Source of the DNA: Thermithiobacillus tepidarius DSM 3134
GTDB lineage: Bacteria > Pseudomonadota > Gammaproteobacteria > Acidithiobacillales > Thermithiobacillaceae
Direction of reading: 5' to 3'
DNA length: 64,000 bases
Assembly: GCF_000423825.1 (NCBI RefSeq)
Contig: NZ_AUIS01000004.1
Coordinates: 62,001 to 126,000, forward strand
Position numbers and translations under genes: made by a program. The notes under the pieces are model-generated. The model ran no database searches. It was given only the letters and a program-made list of their open reading frames with translations, and was not told the DNA's origin. This document shows positions 54,554-64,000 of this stretch, in pieces (the first letter of the stretch is position 1; each line of letters begins with the position of its first letter).

Positions 54554-56503
54554 ATGCAGCTTGAAGGCAAGGCAAAGCGAATCGGGATCGGCGTCGCCGT
54601 CCTGGCCGCGCTCATCGCGCTCGGGGTGGCGCTGTTCGACTGGAACATGCTGCGCGGCTTCGTGTCCCACCAGGTCAGCGAGCGCACCGGTCGGCCCTTT
54701 GCCATCCGTGGCGATCTGGACGTCAAGCTGTCCATGACGCCCACCATCCGCATGCACGACATCGTCATGGGCAATGCCTCCTGGGGCAGCCGGCCCGACA
54801 TGGCGGACATCGATCTGCTGGAGTTCCGCATCGACCTTTGGCAATTGCTGAAGGGCCATGTGCTCATCCCGGAGCTGAGCCTGACCCGGCCGGACATCCT
54901 GCTGGAAAAAGGCCCCAGCGGCCAGCGCAACTGGGATCTCGGCAAGCCCGGCGCCAAGGGCGGCGAGCCGCCGCGCATCGGTCAGCTGAACATCCGCGAC
55001 GGCGTGCTCGCCTATCGCGACCCTGCCCTCGACGCCAGCATCCGCCTGAACATCTCCACCGTGCCGCCGCCGGCGGCCGGCGGCGAGGCGGCCATCATCG
55101 TCAGCGGGGACGGGCGCTTCAAGGACGAGCCCTTTTCCCTGACCGGGCGGGGCGGCTCCCTGCTGTCCCTGCGCCGGCCCAACGATCCCTATCCGCTGGA
55201 GGTCAAGGCACGCATCGGCGGCAGCCGGGCGGAGGCGCGCGGCACCCTCACCGACCCCATCCGCTTGCGTGGCATCAACCTCAATCTGGCCCTGCGCGGC
55301 GAGGATCTGGCGAAGCTGTATCCGATCATCGGCACGCCCATCCCCAGCACGCCGCCGTATACCCTGGTGGGCCATCTGGACCGCCAGGGGCAGGTGTGGC
55401 GCTTCAATGATTTCCGCGGCACGGTGGGCGACAGCGACCTGTCCGGCGACTTCTCGGTGGACAATGGCGGCGACAAACCCTTCATGCGCGGCAATCTGGT
55501 ATCCGAGAACCTGGATTACGACGATCTGGCCGGCTTCATCGGCGGCCATCCCAAGACCGGTCCGGGCGAAACGGCCTCGCCCGAGCAGAAGCAGGAGGCG
55601 GCCCGCGATGCGCGCCGCGGACGCATCTTTCCCGACAAGCCCTTCAATCTGACCCGGCTGCGCGCGGCGGACGCGGACGTGAAGTTCCGCGGCAAGCATA
55701 TCAAGACCGCCAAGCTGCCCCTGGACGACATCAGTGCGAACCTGATCCTGAAAGACGGCAGGCTCACCCTCAAGCCGCTGAACTTCGGCGTGGCCGGCGG
55801 CAACGTGGTGTCCACCATTTCTCTCGACGCCCGCAAGCCGGTCATCGCCACCAATGTCGATGCGACCGTACGCGGCATCCACCTGCGTCGGCTCTTTCCC
55901 ACGTTCAATCTCAGCAAGACCAGCGTGGGACAGTTCGGCGGACGGGCGAAATTCGTCACCACCGGCAACTCCTTCGCCGATATGGCGGCGGCGGCCGACG
56001 GCAACATCGGTCTGGCCATGAACGGGGGGGCGACCAGCGAGCTGTTGCTGGCTTTGGCCCAGATCCATGGCGACCAGGCCTTGATGTACCTGCTCGGGGG
56101 CGACGAGAAGGCGCGCATCCGCTGCGCGGTGGCGGATTTCAAGGTGAAAGACGGCGTCATGCGCACCGACACCTTCCTGATCGACACCACCGCCACCAAC
56201 GTGGTCGGGCAGGGCACTGTGGATTTGCGCAGGGAGCACCTGAATCTGACGCTGCGCACCCAGCCGAAGCAGGTGAGCTTCGTCAGCGCCCGCGCGCCCC
56301 TATACATCAAGGGGCCTTTCCGCAAGCCGGATGTCGGCGTGGACAAGACCGCCATCGCCGCCCGCGGCGCGGCGGCCATCGCTCTCGGCGCGCTCTTGAG
56401 TCCCATCGCGGCGCTGGTGCCGCTGGTCGACACTCCCGAAGGCAAGAACCACGATTGCGCGGCGCTGCTCGACCACGTGCGGCAACCGGCCGGGAAAGAG
56501 TAG
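54554..56503 (+). CDS. AsmA-family protein
   Basis: A 649-residue protein with one N-terminal helix (about residues 8-28, KRIGIGVAVLAALIALGVAL) and a large periplasmic part. FAIRGDLDVKLSMTPTIRMH and GNASWGSRPDMADIDLLEFR are typical AsmA N-terminal blocks; the C-terminal AsmA_2-type region has TVDLRREHLNLTLRTQPKQV and IKGPFRKPDVGVDK. The GGAGG at 54544 favours ATG 54554 over an in-frame ATG at 54512. AsmA-like proteins are thought to bridge the periplasm and move phospholipid to the outer membrane. Confidence 0.88.
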   Translation: MQLEGKAKRIGIGVAVLAALIALGVALFDWNMLRGFVSHQVSERTGRPFAIRGDLDVKLSMTPTIRMHDIVMGNASWGSRPDMADIDLLEFRIDLWQLLKGHVLIPELSLTRPDILLEKGPSGQRNWDLGKPGAKGGEPPRIGQLNIRDGVLAYRDPALDASIRLNISTVPPPAAGGEAAIIVSGDGRFKDEPFSLTGRGGSLLSLRRPNDPYPLEVKARIGGSRAEARGTLTDPIRLRGINLNLALRGEDLAKLYPIIGTPIPSTPPYTLVGHLDRQGQVWRFNDFRGTVGDSDLSGDFSVDNGGDKPFMRGNLVSENLDYDDLAGFIGGHPKTGPGETASPEQKQEAARDARRGRIFPDKPFNLTRLRAADADVKFRGKHIKTAKLPLDDISANLILKDGRLTLKPLNFGVAGGNVVSTISLDARKPVIATNVDATVRGIHLRRLFPTFNLSKTSVGQFGGRAKFVTTGNSFADMAAAADGNIGLAMNGGATSELLLALAQIHGDQALMYLLGGDEKARIRCAVADFKVKDGVMRTDTFLIDTTATNVVGQGTVDLRREHLNLTLRTQPKQVSFVSARAPLYIKGPFRKPDVGVDKTAIAARGAAAIALGALLSPIAALVPLVDTPEGKNHDCAALLDHVRQPAGKE

Positions 56504-56510
56504 CGTAGCC

Positions 56511-56650
56511 TCGATCGCGGGCAAGCCCGTTCCCACAGGCCAGTGCAAAGGTGTAGGATGAACTGCCGGTATTGCAGCACCCACCCGATGCACCACAGGC
56601 CAGTGCAAAGGTCGGGCTCGGGTTGTAGGAGCGAGCTTGCTCGCGATCGA
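56511..56650. repeat. Inverted REP pair (REPIN-like element)
   Basis: Two REP-type palindromic units face each other: 56511-56540 (minus-strand core GTGGGAACGGGCTTGCCCGC) and 56622-56650 (core GTAGGAGCGAGCTTGCTCGC). Their sequences match the class of REP elements known from Pseudomonas and relatives. They lie between asmA and the riboswitch. REPs are mobilised by RAYT transposases; none is in this window. Confidence 0.75.
56533..56612 (+). repeat. 20-bp direct repeat, 60-bp period
   Basis: CCACAGGCCAGTGCAAAGGT occurs exactly at 56533-56552 and 56593-56612, partly overlapping the first REP unit. It may be spacer sequence of the REP element or the trace of a tandem duplication. Confidence 0.85.
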
Positions 56651-56738
56651 TGCGGTCTTGCCGCGTTCTTCCCGCCCGCATACGAGCGTTCGCGGCTGGA
56701 GACGCGTCCTGGTCGCCGGGATGCGAACACCTTCGCTC

Positions 56739-56768
56739 TGGACCTGGACAATCCCGCTGCTTTAAACT
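56739..56768 (+). promoter_or_regulatory. Possible promoter of the c-di-GMP riboswitch and chemosensory operon
   Basis: TGGACC (56739-56744), an 18-base spacer and TAAACT (56763-56768) would start transcription near 56775, just before the aptamer. Each box matches only four of six consensus bases. A sigma-28-like pattern overlaps (TAAA at 56763, CTGATAA at 56782) but would start inside the aptamer, so I do not favour it. Confidence 0.35.
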
Positions 56769-56783
56769 AAATGAGAATACACT

Positions 56784-56866
56784 GATAAAGGCAAACCCAT
56801 CGAAAGGTGGGGACGCAAAGCTTCCGGTCTACGGGACGCAGTCCTAGGATAGCGGGGTCGCCAGAT
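56784..56866 (+). ncRNA. Cyclic-di-GMP-I (GEMM-I) riboswitch aptamer
   Basis: All hallmarks are present. A GGC/GCC outer stem closes the element (56790-56792 with 56860-56862). A hairpin is capped by a GAAA tetraloop closed by C-G (56796-56811). The invariant joining segment GACGCAAAGC is at 56812-56821. The second hairpin has the tetraloop-receptor-like TCTA...CCTAGGATAGC, and the 3' side reads GCGGGGTCGCC. The class binds cyclic di-GMP through a guanine and a cytosine at the helix junction. It lies about 220 bases upstream of the first methyl-accepting chemotaxis gene, in the operon leader. Confidence 0.93.
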
Positions 56867-56976
56867 GTCACGCTTGGTCTCATCTGTCCTCCCCGTCTTT
56901 CCTCCCGGCCCTTTGCGGCCACCCCCATGAGTTTTGCCCGGATCTTGCGCCGTCGGCGGCATATCGTGTCATTGCC

Positions 56977-57020
56977 GCGTGGCAGCGGACGGCCGGACGC
57001 CTGCGCGCCACGCTGTTCTC
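56977..57020 (+). other. Candidate expression-platform hairpin of the riboswitch
   Basis: GCGTGGC (56977-56983) and GCCACGC (57007-57013) can pair across a GC-rich loop, followed by TGTTCTC. It could act as a weak terminator or as part of a switch between the aptamer and the start codon. The following 57040-57075 is very AT-rich (TTTAAAAATATATTTAAAAG) and keeps the ribosome site unstructured. Confidence 0.3.
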
Positions 57021-57087
57021 ACGTCTTCGGCTGCGCATGGTTATCAGAATTTAAAAATATATTTAAAAGACGATGTTTGGAGGAAGC

Positions 57088-58299
57088 ATGAACGAGCTGA
57101 CACCGGGCTTGGCCAATTCGTCCGCCCTGTGGCTGGCCCCCCTGGCCGTTGCCGTGCCAGGCAGCGCGATGTTGCTGGCCGCCGCCGGCTTTGGGCTGCA
57201 GCAGCTGCTCATGGGCGCGGCCCTGCTGATCCTGGGCGTTGGCGCGGCCTGGTGGGCGCTGGCCCGGCATCGGGCCGCGTTGCGCACTGCCATGTCGCGG
57301 ACGCGTGCCGCCCTGGAGCAAGCCCAGGCGACGACGGCTGTCGAGTGCCAAGTGGCGGGCCTGGAGGAGGGCTGCAATGCGGCTCTGCCCATCTGGTGCC
57401 GCCAGATCGACACCGCCCGGGTGCAGACGGAGGACGCCATCATGGCGCTGATGGGGCGCTTCGCCGGCATCATCGACAAGCTGGAGGCGTCGGTGGCGGC
57501 CTCGCAGCAGGCGGCGGGCGGCATCGGCGGACAGGGAGGCGCCAGCGCCGCCTTCAGCGAGAGCGAGATCGAGCTCGCCGCCATCGTCGATGCCCTGAAG
57601 CTGGCGGTGGAAGTGAAGAACAGCATGCTGGCCGAGACCCACAAGCTGGCCGGCCTGGTGGGCGAGCTCCAAGGCATGGCGGTGGAGGTGGGCGAGATCG
57701 CCGGGCAGACCAATCTCCTGGCGCTCAATGCCGCCATCGAGGCGGCGCGCGCCGGCGAGTACGGGCGCGGCTTCGCCGTGGTTTCGGACGAGGTGCGCAA
57801 GCTGTCCACCCTGTCCGCCGAAACCGGCAAGCGCATCAGCGAGAAGGTGGCGGTCATCGGCGCGGCCATGCATGCCGCCGTGCAGGCCGCCGACGATCAT
57901 TCCGCCCGGCACGAGCAGGCGGTGCTGGACTCCGAGGCCGCCATTCAGCGCATCCTCGCCCGGTTCCAGGAAGTCACCGCCGGCCTGTCGGCGTCGGCCG
58001 ACCTCATGCAGCGGGAGAGCGCGGGCATCCGCGACGAGATTTCCGACGTGCTGGTCTCGCTGCAGTTTCAGGATCGCATCAGCCAGATCCTGACCCACGT
58101 GCGCAACAGCATGGACGATTTGCACGAACGCCTGCAGGAAGCGGCCCGGGCGCGCGCCGGCGGCCGCGCCCCGGTGCCGATCGACGTGGGCGCCTGGCTG
58201 CGGGAGATGGAGGCGGGCTACGCCATGATCGAGCAGCGCATGAACCATCGCGGCCAGCAGGCCCAGGCCGCGTCCGACTCGGACATCACCTTTTTCTAG
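57088..58299 (+). CDS. Methyl-accepting chemotaxis-type protein without periplasmic sensor domain
   Basis: A 403-residue protein. Two closely spaced membrane helices (about 16-36 and 40-62) leave almost no periplasmic loop, and there is no HAMP domain of usual form. The signalling tip reads [20 protein letters not shown] followed by [18 protein letters not shown], the CheA/CheW contact hairpin. The C-terminal helix includes [20 protein letters not shown], seen in receptors of alternative chemosensory systems. GGAGGA sets the start at 57088. Lacking an external sensor it probably responds to cytoplasmic or membrane signals. The final residues DITFF do not form the aromatic CheR-docking pentapeptide. 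Confidence 0.88.
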
Positions 58300-58319
58300 A
58301 ACGACACAGGGAGGAATAC

Positions 58320-58688
58320 ATGGCCAAAACCGTCATGATCGTGGACGACTCCGCGTCCATTCGCCAAGTGGTCGGCATCGCCCTCAAGGGTGCCGGCTAC
58401 GATGTGATCGAGGCCGCCGACGGCAAGGATGCGCTCGGCAAGCTCAACGGCCAGAAGGTGCATCTCATCATCAGCGACGTGAACATGCCCAACATGGACG
58501 GCATCAGCTTCGTCAAGGAAGTCAAGCAGTTGCCGAGCTACAAGTTCACGCCCGTGATCATGCTGACCACCGAGTCCCAGGAGAGCAAGAAGCAGGAGGG
58601 CCAGGCGGCCGGAGCCAAGGCCTGGGTGGTCAAGCCTTTCCAGCCTGCGCAGATGCTGGCCGCCGTCTCCAAGCTGATCATGCCCTGA
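58320..58688 (+). CDS. CheY-like response regulator
   Basis: A 122-residue single receiver domain. Asp9/Asp10 form the metal pocket, Asp53 (IISDVNMPNMDG) is the phosphorylation site, Thr83-Thr84 and Lys105 (VVKPF) complete the active site. AGGGAGGA precedes the ATG at 58320. It is placed between a receptor and the STAS/CheA genes, so it is the phosphoacceptor of the CheA in this operon. It may act on flagella, pili or another output; no motor gene is visible. Confidence 0.93.
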   Translation: MAKTVMIVDDSASIRQVVGIALKGAGYDVIEAADGKDALGKLNGQKVHLIISDVNMPNMDGISFVKEVKQLPSYKFTPVIMLTTESQESKKQEGQAAGAKAWVVKPFQPAQMLAAVSKLIMP

Positions 58689-58707: not shown

Positions 58708-59031
58708 GTGGCGGTGAGCATCGACAAGGAAAACGACATCTGCCGGCTGGGCATCGACGGCGAGATGAGCATCTACACGGCGGCGGCGCTGAAGGACGCG
58801 CTGCTGCAGCCGCTCGCGGACTGCGCCGAGTTGGAGGTCAGTCTGGCCGGGGTGAGCGAGCTGGACGGCGCTGGCCTGCAACTCTTGCTGCTGCTCAAGC
58901 GGGAGGCCGCCCGGCGGGACAAGGCCCTGCGGCTGGTGGCCCACAGTCCAGCCACCCTGGAGGTGCTGGAGCTCTGCAACCTGGCCGCCTATTTCGGCGA
59001 TCCCCTCGTCATCCCGGCACAACAAGCATAA
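58708..59031 (+). CDS. STAS-domain protein in chemosensory operon
   Basis: A 107-residue single STAS domain, related to anti-anti-sigma factors. In SpoIIAA the DSSGL loop contains the serine phosphorylated by an anti-sigma kinase; here the loop reads ELDGAGLQLL, so that serine is missing. GTG 58708 is the likely start (no in-frame ATG nearby). STAS proteins occur in several chemosensory operons where their partner is unknown. No anti-sigma factor gene is seen. Confidence 0.85.
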   Translation: MAVSIDKENDICRLGIDGEMSIYTAAALKDALLQPLADCAELEVSLAGVSELDGAGLQLLLLLKREAARRDKALRLVAHSPATLEVLELCNLAAYFGDPLVIPAQQA

Positions 59032-59064: not shown

Positions 59065-61266
59065 GTGGACCTGGCACAGGCCCAAGAAACCTTTATCGTC
59101 GAAAGCAGCGAACTGCTCCAGGAAATGGAGAATGCGCTGCTGCATCTGGAGACCCGGCCCGACGACCTGGAAGCCGTGCACGCCCTCTTTCGGGCGGCGC
59201 ACACCATCAAGGGCTCGGCCGGGCTCTTCGGCTTTGACCAAGTGGTGGCCTTCACCCATGTGGTCGAGAGCGTGCTGGAGCAGCTGCGCGACGGCTTGAT
59301 CACTTTGAACGCCGATTTGAGCGCCGTGCTGCTGGCCTGCCGCGACCATGCCGGCGCCCTGATCGATCAGGCCGTGGCCGGCAGCGGGCCGGATGACGAC
59401 ATGCACGCGCATGGAGAGGCCCTGCTCGCCCGGCTGCGGACCCACGCCCAAGGACCGGCGGCGGGCGCCGGCACGCCGCCGGCCCCGGTGACCCCTGCGC
59501 CGGTGGAAGTCGTCGGCCGGACCGTGGCGACGGACAACTGGCACATCTCCCTGCGTTTCGGCCGCGACGTGCTGCGCAACGGCATGGATCCGCTGTCCTT
59601 CATCCGCTATCTCGCCACCCTGGGCGAGATCGTCAACCTCACCACCTTGCCAGATGCCCTGCCGCCGGCCGCCGACATGGACCCGGAGTCCTGCTATCTC
59701 GGCTTCGAGATCGATTTCCACAGCGCTGCGGACAAGGACAGCATCGAGCGCGTCTTCGAGTTCGTGCAGGACGACTGCCAGATCCGCATCCTGCCGCCGC
59801 ATAGCCGCATCGACGAGTATCTGGCCCTGATCGAGGAGTTGCCGGAGGACAAGCTGCTGCTCGGCGAGATCCTCATCCAGGGCGGCGCCCTGACCGCCCG
59901 CGAGCTGGAGGAGGCGCTGGCGGCGCAACGGGCGGGCGCCGGGGCTGCGACGGAAGCCGCGCCCCAGGCCCGGCTCGGCGAGATCCTGGTGGAAGAGGGG
60001 GTGGTGCATCCGCCGGTGGTCGAGGCGGCGCTGGAAAAGCAGAAGCAGACGCGCGAGCACAAGGCCCAGGAGAGCAAGTTCATCCGCGTGCAGGCCGACA
60101 AGCTGGATCAGCTCATCGACCTCATCGGAGAACTGGTCATCGCCGGCGCCGGCACCAGCCTCATCGCCAGCCGCGCCGGCCATGCGGAGATGCAGGAGGC
60201 GGCCTCGCTCATGGCGCGCCTGGTGGAGCACATCCGCGAGCACGCCCTGCGGCTGCGCATGGTGCAGATCGGCGAAACTTTCAACCGCTTCCAGCGCGTG
60301 GTGCGCGAGGTCAGCCGCGAGCTGGGCAAGGACATCGAGCTCGTCATCAGCGGCGGCGATACCGAGCTCGACAAGTCGGTGATCGAGAAGATCGGCGATC
60401 CGCTCATGCATCTGGTGCGCAACGCCATGGACCATGGCATCGAGCCGGCCGAGCTGCGCCTGGCGCGCGGCAAGCCGGCGCGTGGCCGGCTGCGGCTCAA
60501 CGCCTACCATGAATCCAGCAGCATCGTCATCGAAGTGGCCGACGACGGCGGCGGGTTGAGCCGCGAGCGCATCCTGAAAAAAGCCCTGGACAAGGGGCTG
60601 ATCGAGCCCGGCCAGACGCTCGCCGACGCCGAGGTGTACAAGCTCGTCTTCGAGCCCGGCTTTTCCACGGCGGAGCAGGTTACCAACCTGTCCGGCCGCG
60701 GCGTGGGCATGGACGTGGTCAAGCGCAACATCGAGGCGTTGCGCGGCAGCATCGAGGTGGACACCCGCGAAGGGGAGGGCACCACCTTCCGCATCCGCCT
60801 GCCGCTGACCCTGGCCATCATCGACGGCTTCCTGGTGGGCGTGGGTCGGGCGTCGTACGTGCTGCCCCTGGATGCCGTGGTGGAGTGCATCGAGCTGTCG
60901 GAAACGGAGCGTCAGGCCGCCCGGGGCCGCGACTACATCAGCCTGCGCGGCGAGGTGCTGCCTTTCCTGCGCCTGCGGGATCTCTTCGCTCTCGAAGCCG
61001 GCTCCACCCGCCGCGAGAGCATCGTCGTGGTCGAATACGCCGGCCGCAAGGCCGGGCTGGTGGTGGACGAGCTGCTGGGCGAGTTCCAGACCGTGATCAA
61101 GCCGCTGGGCAAGGTCTTCCAGCACCTGCGCGGCATCAGCGGTTCGACCATCCTCGGCAGCGGCGAGGTGGCGCTCATCCTTGACGTGCCCAACATCATC
61201 CAGCGCGCGGTGACGGCGCAGGCGCAGGCGCAGCGCAGCGCCGCCGGCCGCGGCCTGCTGCATTAA
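59065..61266 (+). CDS. cheA: Chemotaxis histidine kinase CheA with two MshEN-like motifs
   Basis: A 733-residue kinase. The Hpt domain is at 1-105 with phospho-acceptor His46 ([11 protein letters not shown]). An unusual middle region (about 150-330) has a small domain and then two 24-residue repeats: [20 protein letters not shown]... ending at Gln288, and [20 protein letters not shown]... ending at Gln326. These match the MshEN pattern (RLG..L...G......L..AL..Q) found at the N-terminus of PilB/MshE-type ATPases. The P3 dimerisation helices (335-400), the ATPase domain with N box [11 protein letters not shown] and G boxes ADDGGG and GRGVGMD, and the CheW-like domain (577-733) follow. Start is GTG 59065 with GGGAGGAAG. 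E. coli CheA has a CheY-binding P2 in this middle position. Confidence 0.94.
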
Positions 61267-61295: not shown

Positions 61296-62909
61296 ATGTT
61301 CAAGAGCATGAAAATCGGCACGAGATTGGGGTTGGGCTTCGGACTGGTGATCCTGCTGATGCTCGCCATGGGCATCATGGCCATCCGCCAGTTGGCCACC
61401 CTGAATAGCATGCTGGATCAGGTGGTGACGGATCGTTATCCCAAAACCGCTATTGCCAACGACGTGGTCAAGCAGTTGGGCCTGATCGCGCGGGCACAAC
61501 GCAACACGATGCTGGTGGCCAGCCCGGCCGAGGTTCAGAAGGAGCTTGGGCGAATTGACAAAGCAAGAAAGGAAATTGGCGAAAACTTGGACAAGCTCGA
61601 AAAGTCCGTTTCCAGTGGTGAGGCCAGGGCGCTGTTCGAGAAGGTCAAAGAAGCGCGTGGCAAGTATAAGGTGGCGCAGGACCGCTTCACCGAGATGGTA
61701 AGGGCAGGAAACATTGAGGAAGCGAAGCTCTACCTGCTGACCCAGGTGCGCCCGGTGCAGAATCCCTATTTCGAAGCACTGAACGCCTTCGTGGATTACC
61801 AGCAGTCGCTGATGGACAGCGCTTCCCAAGAGTCCACCGCGCTTTATGAGAACGCTCGCAACACCCTGGTTCTGCTCGGCGTCATCGCGCTGGCCCTGGC
61901 TGCCGGCCTGGGCTTCTGGGTCACCCGCTCCATCACCCGCCCCCTGAACGAGGCCGTGGGCGTGGCCAACCAGCTGGCGGACGGCAACATGGCGGTGCAG
62001 ATCGCCGCCACGTCCAAGGACGAGACCGGACAGTTGCTGAGCGCCATGCAGAACATGGTGGCCAAGCTGTCGCAGATCATCACCGAGGTGCGCGGCTCGG
62101 CCGATGCCCTGTCCAGCGCCGCCGGCGAGGTGAGCGCCACCGCGCAGAGCCTGAGCCAAGCCGCCAGCGAGCAGGCCGCCGGCGTGGAGGAGACCAGCGC
62201 CGCCCTGGAGCAGATGACCGCCAGCATCAACCAGAACACCGACAACGCCAAGGTGACCGACGGCATGGCCGCCAAGGCGGCGCAGGAGGCGGCCGAGGGC
62301 GGCACGGCGGTGCAGCAGACCGTCGCGGCCATGCAGCAGATCGCCGAGCGCATCAGCATCATCGACGACATCGCCTACCAGACCAACCTCCTGGCCCTGA
62401 ACGCCGCCATCGAGGCGGCGCGCGCCGGCGAGCAGGGCCGCGGCTTCGCCGTGGTGGCAGCGGAGGTGCGCAAGCTGGCCGAGCGCAGCCAAGTGGCGGC
62501 CCAGGAGATCGGCGAGCTGGCCGGCAACAGCGTGGCCCTGGCGGAACGGGCCGGCAAGCTGCTGGACGCCATCGTGCCGAGCATCCAGAAGACCTCGGAC
62601 CTGGTGCAGGAGATCGCTGCGGCCAGCAGCGAGCAGTCGGCCGGCGTCGGCCAGATCAACACCGCCATGGCCCAGCAGAGCCAGATCACCCAGCAGAACG
62701 CCTCGGCCAGCGAGGAGCTGGCCGCCACCGCCGAGGAGATGAGCGGGCAGGCCGAGCAGCTGCAGCAGGTCATGAGTTTCTTCCGCATGGCTGATGCTGG
62801 CCGCGGCGGCCGGGTGTCGCCGGTCAAGCCGGTCGCGGCGCCGCGCGTCGCCCGGGCGGCCGCGCCGCTCCCGGCCGCGGCCGACGAGCGCGATTTCGAG
62901 CGCTTCTGA
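61296..62909 (+). CDS. Methyl-accepting chemotaxis protein with four-helix-bundle sensor
   Basis: A 537-residue transmembrane receptor. Helix 1 is at about 11-31, a periplasmic four-helix bundle sensor covers 32-190, helix 2 about 193-215, then HAMP ([20 protein letters not shown]) and the cytoplasmic signalling domain with the tip [20 protein letters not shown] and methylation helices. The protein ends ERDFERF; the last five residues DFERF fit the CheR/CheB-docking pattern x-aromatic-x-x-aromatic. GGGAGGAAA precedes the ATG at 61296. Ligand is unknown. Confidence 0.94.
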
Positions 62910-62919
62910 GGAGGGCGGC

Positions 62920-63447
62920 ATGGGCGAACTCGTGGCAGCAGCACAGCCGGGCGCCGGATCGGCGCAGGAGCAGCAGTACCTCACCTTTCAGCTGGCGGGT
63001 GAGACCTATGCCCTGGCCATCCTGGGCATCAAGGAGATCATCGAGTACGGCCAGCTCACCGCCGTGCCGATGATGCCGGCCTGGATCCGCGGCGTGATCA
63101 ACCTGCGCGGCAGCGTGGTGCCGGTGGTGGATCTCGGCGTGCGCTTCGGCGGCGCGCCCACCGCCGTGCACAAGCGCAGCTGCATCGTCATCCTGGAAGT
63201 GGCGGCCGGCGAAGAGCGGCAGGATCTCGGCGTCATCGTCGACGCGGTCAACGAAGTGCTGGAAATCGCGCCGGCGGAGATCGAGCCGGCTCCCGCCTTC
63301 GGCGCGCGGCTGCGCACCGACTTCATCCGCGGCATGGGCAAGGTGGACGGACGCTTCGTGATCATCCTCGATGCCGGCCAGGTATTGTCGGTCGAGGAGT
63401 TGGCCCTGCTGGAGCAGAGCGTGGACAGCGTCGGCGCGGAGGCGTGA
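62920..63447 (+). CDS. cheW: CheW coupling protein
   Basis: A 175-residue adaptor linking receptors with CheA. The core CheW fold reads YLTFQLAGETYALAILGIKE, then PAWIRGVINLRGSVVPVVDL and FIRGMGKVDGRFVIILDAGQ. GAGGAGGGCGG precedes the ATG, which follows the MCP stop by ten bases. Slightly longer than E. coli CheW (167). Confidence 0.94.
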   Translation: MGELVAAAQPGAGSAQEQQYLTFQLAGETYALAILGIKEIIEYGQLTAVPMMPAWIRGVINLRGSVVPVVDLGVRFGGAPTAVHKRSCIVILEVAAGEERQDLGVIVDAVNEVLEIAPAEIEPAPAFGARLRTDFIRGMGKVDGRFVIILDAGQVLSVEELALLEQSVDSVGAEA

Positions 63448-63483
63448 GCGAGCGGCTTGGCCCATGACCGGGAGGAGACGGCA

Positions 63484-64000
63484 GTGGTGATGGACGAGCA
63501 GGGGACGGGCGCGCAAGGCATGCTGCCGCGCTTCGTCGCGATCAACGAGGAAATCAAGCGCGTGGTGCAGGGCGCCCGCCAGGTGAACCACGCCGCCCTC
63601 AACGCCATGCTGCTGGCCAAGAAGTCCGGCAGCCGGGCGGCCGGCTTCGGCGTGGTGGCGGCGGAGCTCAGGCGCTTCAGCACGATGCTGGAAAGCCACA
63701 TGCAGGTGCTCAGCAGCCGCATCTTCGGCGTCATCGAGCGCTTTGCCGTGCTGCAAAAGCGCTCGCGCCTGCACGCTCTGCTGCGCCGCGCCGGCGAGTC
63801 GAGCGCCGAGGCGGGCGCCCGTGCGCTGGATGCCCGCCTGGCATGTGGCCGGGCGGCGCTGGCACGGGCCCGGACCGAGTTGCGGCAGGGCCTGGTCCGC
63901 TTCGGCCGGGAGCTGGATCGCTCCCGGGTCTTGTGCGAGCACGGCGCCCGGCTGGTCACCCTGGCCAAGGTCGAGTCGGCCTACGGCGGCGACTTCGCCG
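63484..64000 (+). CDS. Soluble receptor-tip-like chemosensory protein, cut by window end
   Basis: 172 codons lie within the window and the frame is still open. GGAGGAG six bases before GTG 63484 favours that start; GTG 63487 and ATG 63490 also fit. There is no signal peptide or membrane helix. The region VNHAALNAMLLAKKSGSRAA followed by GFGVVAAELRRFSTM resembles the MCP hairpin tip ([16 protein letters not shown]...[14 protein letters not shown]), but several usually invariant residues are changed. It appears to be a degenerate, soluble half-receptor within the che operon. A role in array structure or as a decoy/adaptor for CheA-CheW is a guess. Confidence 0.7.
   Translation, partial: MVMDEQGTGAQGMLPRFVAINEEIKRVVQGARQVNHAALNAMLLAKKSGSRAAGFGVVAAELRRFSTMLESHMQVLSSRIFGVIERFAVLQKRSRLHALLRRAGESSAEAGARALDARLACGRAALARARTELRQGLVRFGRELDRSRVLCEHGARLVTLAKVESAYGGDFA

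Follow-up and report, generated by a model that had tools for sequence, protein, structure and literature searches.

Proteins are the usual route by which cyclic di-GMP (c-di-GMP) influences motility. In Thermithiobacillus tepidarius DSM 3134, the leader of a chemosensory operon raises the question of whether an RNA sensor of this nucleotide stands before the genes and, if so, in which direction it would switch them.

A GEMM-I aptamer at the head of a chemosensory operon

The original prediction had assigned positions 56784 to 56866 of the window (the whole 64,000-nucleotide stretch of DNA that was analyzed) to the GEMM-I class and had proposed an Rfam search as a check. That search bore the assignment out. 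The covariance model RF01051 matched the window at 79.7 bits against a gathering threshold of 35 (E = 4.9e-14), with boundaries no more than 4 nt from those predicted:

56780 to 56865, forward strand: c-di-GMP-I (GEMM-I) riboswitch aptamer (RF01051, full model, positions 1–87 of 87)

A genome-wide RF01051 search returned the same site with E = 5.4e-16, as the sole GEMM-I aptamer in the 2,958,498-bp T. tepidarius genome. The aptamer was found again, at 88.8 bits, by a class-built model of 31 sequences, the window's own sequence among them. Alignment to the consensus structure placed the GAAA tetraloop at 56802–56805, the GACGCAAAGC segment at 56812–56821 and the closing strand GCC at 56860–56862, and both the GAAA-tetraloop P2 and the P3 hairpin are present; the hallmarks that had been named (tetraloop, joining segment, second hairpin and closing strand) were thus all located. 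These data confirm the element as a true member of the GEMM-I class and its position at the head of a chemosensory operon. No point was found in favor of a chance match or a decayed aptamer, and the E value of 4.9e-14, the match to the full model and the conserved contacts make that explanation exceedingly improbable.

The ligand-contact residues of the structural type for RF01051, Vc2 of Vibrio cholerae, are named in PMC4744006, and we assigned the equivalent positions ourselves. Model position 11 of the aptamer is a G, equivalent to Vc2 G20, where the base determines the preference for c-di-GMP over cGAMP. An A in place of G20 allows the aptamer to accept cGAMP (PMC7288161), and this column holds an A in a few class members of the 31-sequence alignment. 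C82, equivalent to Vc2 C92, is present and is invariant across the alignment. The genome encodes 20 GGDEF domains, and therefore c-di-GMP is very likely made in T. tepidarius. Taken with the G at position 11 and the presence of C82, these domains indicate that c-di-GMP is the likely ligand. The aptamer shares with Vc2 the full sequence and structure match, the ligand-contact G and C and the tetraloop positions, whereas it differs in being followed by a 221-nt leader with a predicted hairpin and anti-Shine–Dalgarno platform.

The original prediction had the element preceding the genes MCP-CheY-STAS-CheA-MCP-CheW. Pfam searches upheld this order, but the operon extends further than predicted, continuing with MCP-like, ODP, CheR, CheD and CheB genes. 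In all, 11 genes (MCP-CheY-STAS-CheA-MCP-CheW-MCP-like-ODP-CheR-CheD-CheB) lie on one strand with short gaps, from 57088 to about 67229:

57079 to 57085, forward strand: Shine–Dalgarno sequence GGAGGAA of the first gene, read from the sequence (ATG at 57088)
57088 to 58299, forward strand: MCP-like chemoreceptor, first gene of the operon, 403 aa (PF00015, E = 1.5e-24)
58314 to 58688, forward strand: CheY-like receiver (PF00072, E = 4.5e-28)
58708 to 59031, forward strand: STAS-domain protein (PF13466, E = 4.2e-14)
59065 to 61266, forward strand: CheA kinase with MshEN-like motif pair (Hpt, H-kinase_dim, HATPase_c and CheW domains; NF053729 above cutoff)
61296 to 62909, forward strand: MCP with 4HB sensor and HAMP (PF12729, PF00672, PF00015)
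62917 to 63447, forward strand: CheW (PF01584, E = 2.1e-39)
63457 to 64000, continuing past the window end to about 64098, forward strand: MCP-like protein (PF00015, weak)
beyond the MCP-like gene to about 67229, forward strand: ODP, CheR, CheD and CheB (PF19583, PF01739, PF03975 and PF01339; locus L009)

From the tight spacing of these genes, it is a reasonable inference that the riboswitch would control the whole operon. The ODP-type protein, a diiron protein of the beta-lactamase fold, is encoded at L009 8843–9829 (about 63843–64829 in window coordinates) and is a possible oxygen sensor.

T. tepidarius DSM 3134 is a motile, moderately thermophilic sulfur oxidizer with a single polar flagellum (PMC5037610). 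On another contig, a second che cluster accompanies flagellar genes, in the order FlhB-FlhA-FlhF-FleN-like-FliA-like sigma-CheY-CheZ-CheA-CheB (L214 8129–12779; contig C43, about 312–317 kb). The riboswitch-led operon thus encodes a separate chemosensory system and not the che genes of the flagellar cluster. The CheA of this second system is split into two overlapping frames, one with the Hpt domain and the other with the kinase and CheW domains, perhaps through a frameshift or an assembly error.

The predicted expression platform

About 221 nt separate the end of the aptamer from the start codon. An intrinsic terminator of the Cd1 type (a GC-rich hairpin followed by a U run) was not found in 56500–57110, nor was a clear sigma-70 promoter in the leader region, where promoter matches were weak everywhere. 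Three features of the spacer bear on how the switch might work:

56852 to 56896, forward strand: predicted anti-aptamer hairpin, in which the aptamer 3′ strand (56852–56867) pairs with a downstream strand (56881–56896) (folding, −22.2 kcal/mol)
56887 to 56892, forward strand: predicted anti-Shine–Dalgarno strand UCCUCC (pairing probabilities), with a second copy, UUCCUCC, at 56899–56905
56880 to 56939, forward strand: C-rich, G-poor stretch, a possible Rho loading site (base composition)

The hairpin draws on the same 3′ strand as the closing stem (CUG/CAG) of the aptamer, so that the two structures would be mutually exclusive. In folding calculations, the energy cost of keeping the aptamer fold climbs as the hairpin strand is transcribed. 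At 56906 the cost was 24.5 kcal/mol. Shuffled tails gave 18.1 ± 2.6 kcal/mol, and 23 of 1000 reached the cost of the leader, which thus exceeds 97.7% of them; tails drawn at random from the genome gave 13.1 ± 3.2 kcal/mol, and 3 of 1000 reached it. By these controls, the predicted hairpin beats chance modestly. For the isolated aptamer, the cost of the class consensus structure was 3.6 kcal/mol, the same as the class median. Neither tertiary contacts nor ligand enter into these energies, which imply that the ligand would have to bind during transcription. Pairing of 56905–56945 with the 5′ half of the aptamer is striking by eye but was not counted as anti-aptamer evidence, its duplex energy being average (−31.1 vs. 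−30.9 ± 3.2 kcal/mol in shuffles).

The Shine–Dalgarno sequence was computed to pair with 56887–56892 with a probability of about 1.0 when the aptamer was enforced and near 0 when it was not. This dependence persisted at 37, 44 and 50 °C and with most of the 3′ ends tried; with the longest (57160) at 50 °C, pairing of the Shine–Dalgarno sequence with the CU-rich strand in the apo fold rose to 0.3–0.5. The apo fold also leaves the Shine–Dalgarno sequence part-paired with early coding sequence, at 0.2–0.8 depending on the 3′ end. Among 150 shuffled spacers, 26 behaved likewise, since any CU-rich spacer can make such pairing; by itself, the ribosome-binding site pairing is thus not better than chance. 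As the Shine–Dalgarno sequence is paired when the aptamer forms and mostly free when it does not, a c-di-GMP OFF switch is predicted. A switch of the opposite sign, with ligand binding undoing an expression-blocking structure, would be in keeping with the great stability of the full-length apo fold and with published GEMM-I switches of both signs (PMC6366702, PMC9262584), but is unlikely given that the computed folds block the ribosome-binding site with the aptamer and not without it.

The excess of C over G in the leader reaches 0.317 over 60 nt, and values of at least 0.30 occur in just 0.19% of the 60-nt windows of the 64 kb. This rare composition suits an anti-Shine–Dalgarno strand or a Rho loading site alike. 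It is therefore possible, though we give it clearly less weight than translational control, that ligand binding frees the C-rich stretch 56880–56939, that Rho loads there and terminates transcription within the long leader, and that the ribosome-binding site pairing is incidental. The rarity of the C excess and the 221-nt leader in which no intrinsic terminator was found are consistent with such a mechanism, and translational control is known to be combined with Rho in E. coli ribB, a precedent cited in PMC11218506. Conversely, Rho sites are not reliably callable from sequence, and part of the C-rich stretch pairs with the Shine–Dalgarno sequence in the aptamer fold.

An AT-rich island at 57045–57075 lies right before the Shine–Dalgarno sequence in an otherwise GC-rich region and is possibly an internal promoter or a translation enhancer. 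Were the operon read mainly from a promoter downstream of the aptamer, the aptamer might bind c-di-GMP with weak or absent control of the genes. The island and the uniformly weak promoter matches would allow this, and the GEMM-I element before mcpE of Bacillus thuringiensis leaves expression unchanged by c-di-GMP (PMC11218506); we nonetheless consider it improbable for T. tepidarius, where the aptamer sequence and its binding nucleotides are intact in a single genomic copy.

Two further candidates in this region were set aside. A sigma-28-like box (TAAA-N14-ACTGATAA, 2 mismatches) overlaps the conserved 5′ end of the aptamer and was treated as coincidence because its RNA would start inside the aptamer. 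A small ORF at 56928–57091, which overlaps the MCP start (ATGA), lacks a Shine–Dalgarno sequence and would encode an unconvincing protein rich in arginine. At 56625–56646, shortly before the leader, lies a palindrome, GTAGGAGCGAGCTTGCTCGCGA, which we take to resemble the REP elements of Pseudomonas. Across the genome its degenerate pattern occurs in 158 copies, many of them arranged as close inverted pairs, and the reversed control has 0.

The mechanism that we favor, somewhat ahead of even, is that the aptamer is a c-di-GMP OFF switch of the 11-gene operon acting through the anti-aptamer hairpin and ribosome-binding site sequestration, possibly with Rho as well; the hairpin, the pairing, the direction and the part of Rho are all modeled from folding energies. 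Without ligand, the downstream strand would capture the 3′ strand of the aptamer in the hairpin 56852–56896, hiding the CU-rich strand and leaving the ribosome-binding site mostly free, and the operon would be ON. Binding of c-di-GMP during transcription would prevent the hairpin from forming, and the freed strand 56887–56892 would pair with the Shine–Dalgarno sequence (57079–57084), turning the operon OFF; the C-rich stretch may also load Rho, to the same effect. We rank sequestration first and Rho second, and both could act together.

A putative c-di-GMP motif in the CheA of the operon

The CheA encoded by the operon matched NF053729, an MshE-related c-di-GMP motif, at 44.7 bits against a cutoff of 38 (48.5 for the sub-region). 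The motif pair is partly degenerate and spans residues of about 265 to 326 (window 59857–60042):

about 59857 to 59928, forward strand: CheA MshEN-like motif I
59971 to 60042, forward strand: CheA MshEN-like motif II

MshEN consists of two RLGxx(LVI)(LVI)xxG(LVI)(LVI)xxxxLxxxLxxQ motifs joined by a 5-residue linker, and CheA–MshEN fusions have been noted earlier (PMC5013675). The operon CheA shares the tandem 24-residue motif with those fusions but differs in three respects. In motif I, a Leu replaces the Arg that matters in MshE (compare PMC5013675); the linker is 14 residues rather than 5; and in motif II, a Val stands for the first Leu of LxxxLxxQ. Binding of c-di-GMP by this module is putative. 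Similar motifs are present in many related CheA proteins, among them those of Pseudomonas, Sulfuricella, Vibrio and others. We raise only tentatively the idea that c-di-GMP acts twice in this operon, the riboswitch setting the amount of the chemosensory system and the MshEN-like module the kinase activity of CheA.

Precedents, distribution and meaning

The riboswitch class itself is ordinary in this setting, since GEMM-I elements before MCP genes have been published (PMC6366702, PMC11218506), in agreement with the link to motility and chemotaxis genes that the original prediction called established, and since Cd1, which precedes the flgB operon in Clostridioides difficile, turns a flagellar operon OFF with c-di-GMP (PMC6366702). 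Cd1 is the precedent for an OFF switch on a motility operon and shares with the T. tepidarius element the GEMM-I class, a large motility-type operon and, as predicted here, the sign; unlike the T. tepidarius leader, it works by intrinsic termination. Bc1, upstream of mcpE in B. thuringiensis (PMC11218506), shares the position before a chemoreceptor gene, a long platform and a ribosome-binding site drawn into structure with ligand (predicted in our case), whereas it relies on two intrinsic terminators and leads an MCP gene, compared with no terminator found and a complete che operon in T. tepidarius. A Bacillus anthracis GEMM-I copy likewise lies upstream of an MCP gene (PMC6366702).

With strict filters, GEMM-I was found in 0 of the order's 30 other genomes. 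This result agrees with the published statement that Acidithiobacillus has no known c-di-GMP riboswitch (PMC5852609), and we found no published report of one for the order of Thermithiobacillus. In the class, 66 of 369 sampled genomes, T. tepidarius included, have GEMM-I. We surveyed about 4.5 kb downstream (less at contig ends) of 80 other GEMM-I sites in the class, and none led an MCP or CheA operon; one MCP was present on the opposite strand, and the few CheY- or CheA-like matches resemble hybrid kinases or receivers. Likewise, the aptamer was absent from all 75 loci that encode relatives of the first MCP gene, which leaves no homologous leader for covariation. Because neither set shares it, this combination of aptamer and operon seems to have arisen locally in the T. 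tepidarius lineage.

The kind of sensor is thus already known, and what is new is its placement and the predicted switch: a complete che operon under a GEMM-I leader, in an order without reported members, with a testable platform and the coincidence of an MshEN-like CheA. The genes that follow this RNA sensor make up a full chemosensory operon, with receptors and an ODP protein resembling an oxygen sensor among the products. Should the switch behave as predicted, a cell that settles would cease production of one sensory array, to which the MshEN-like CheA could add a fast second layer of c-di-GMP control.
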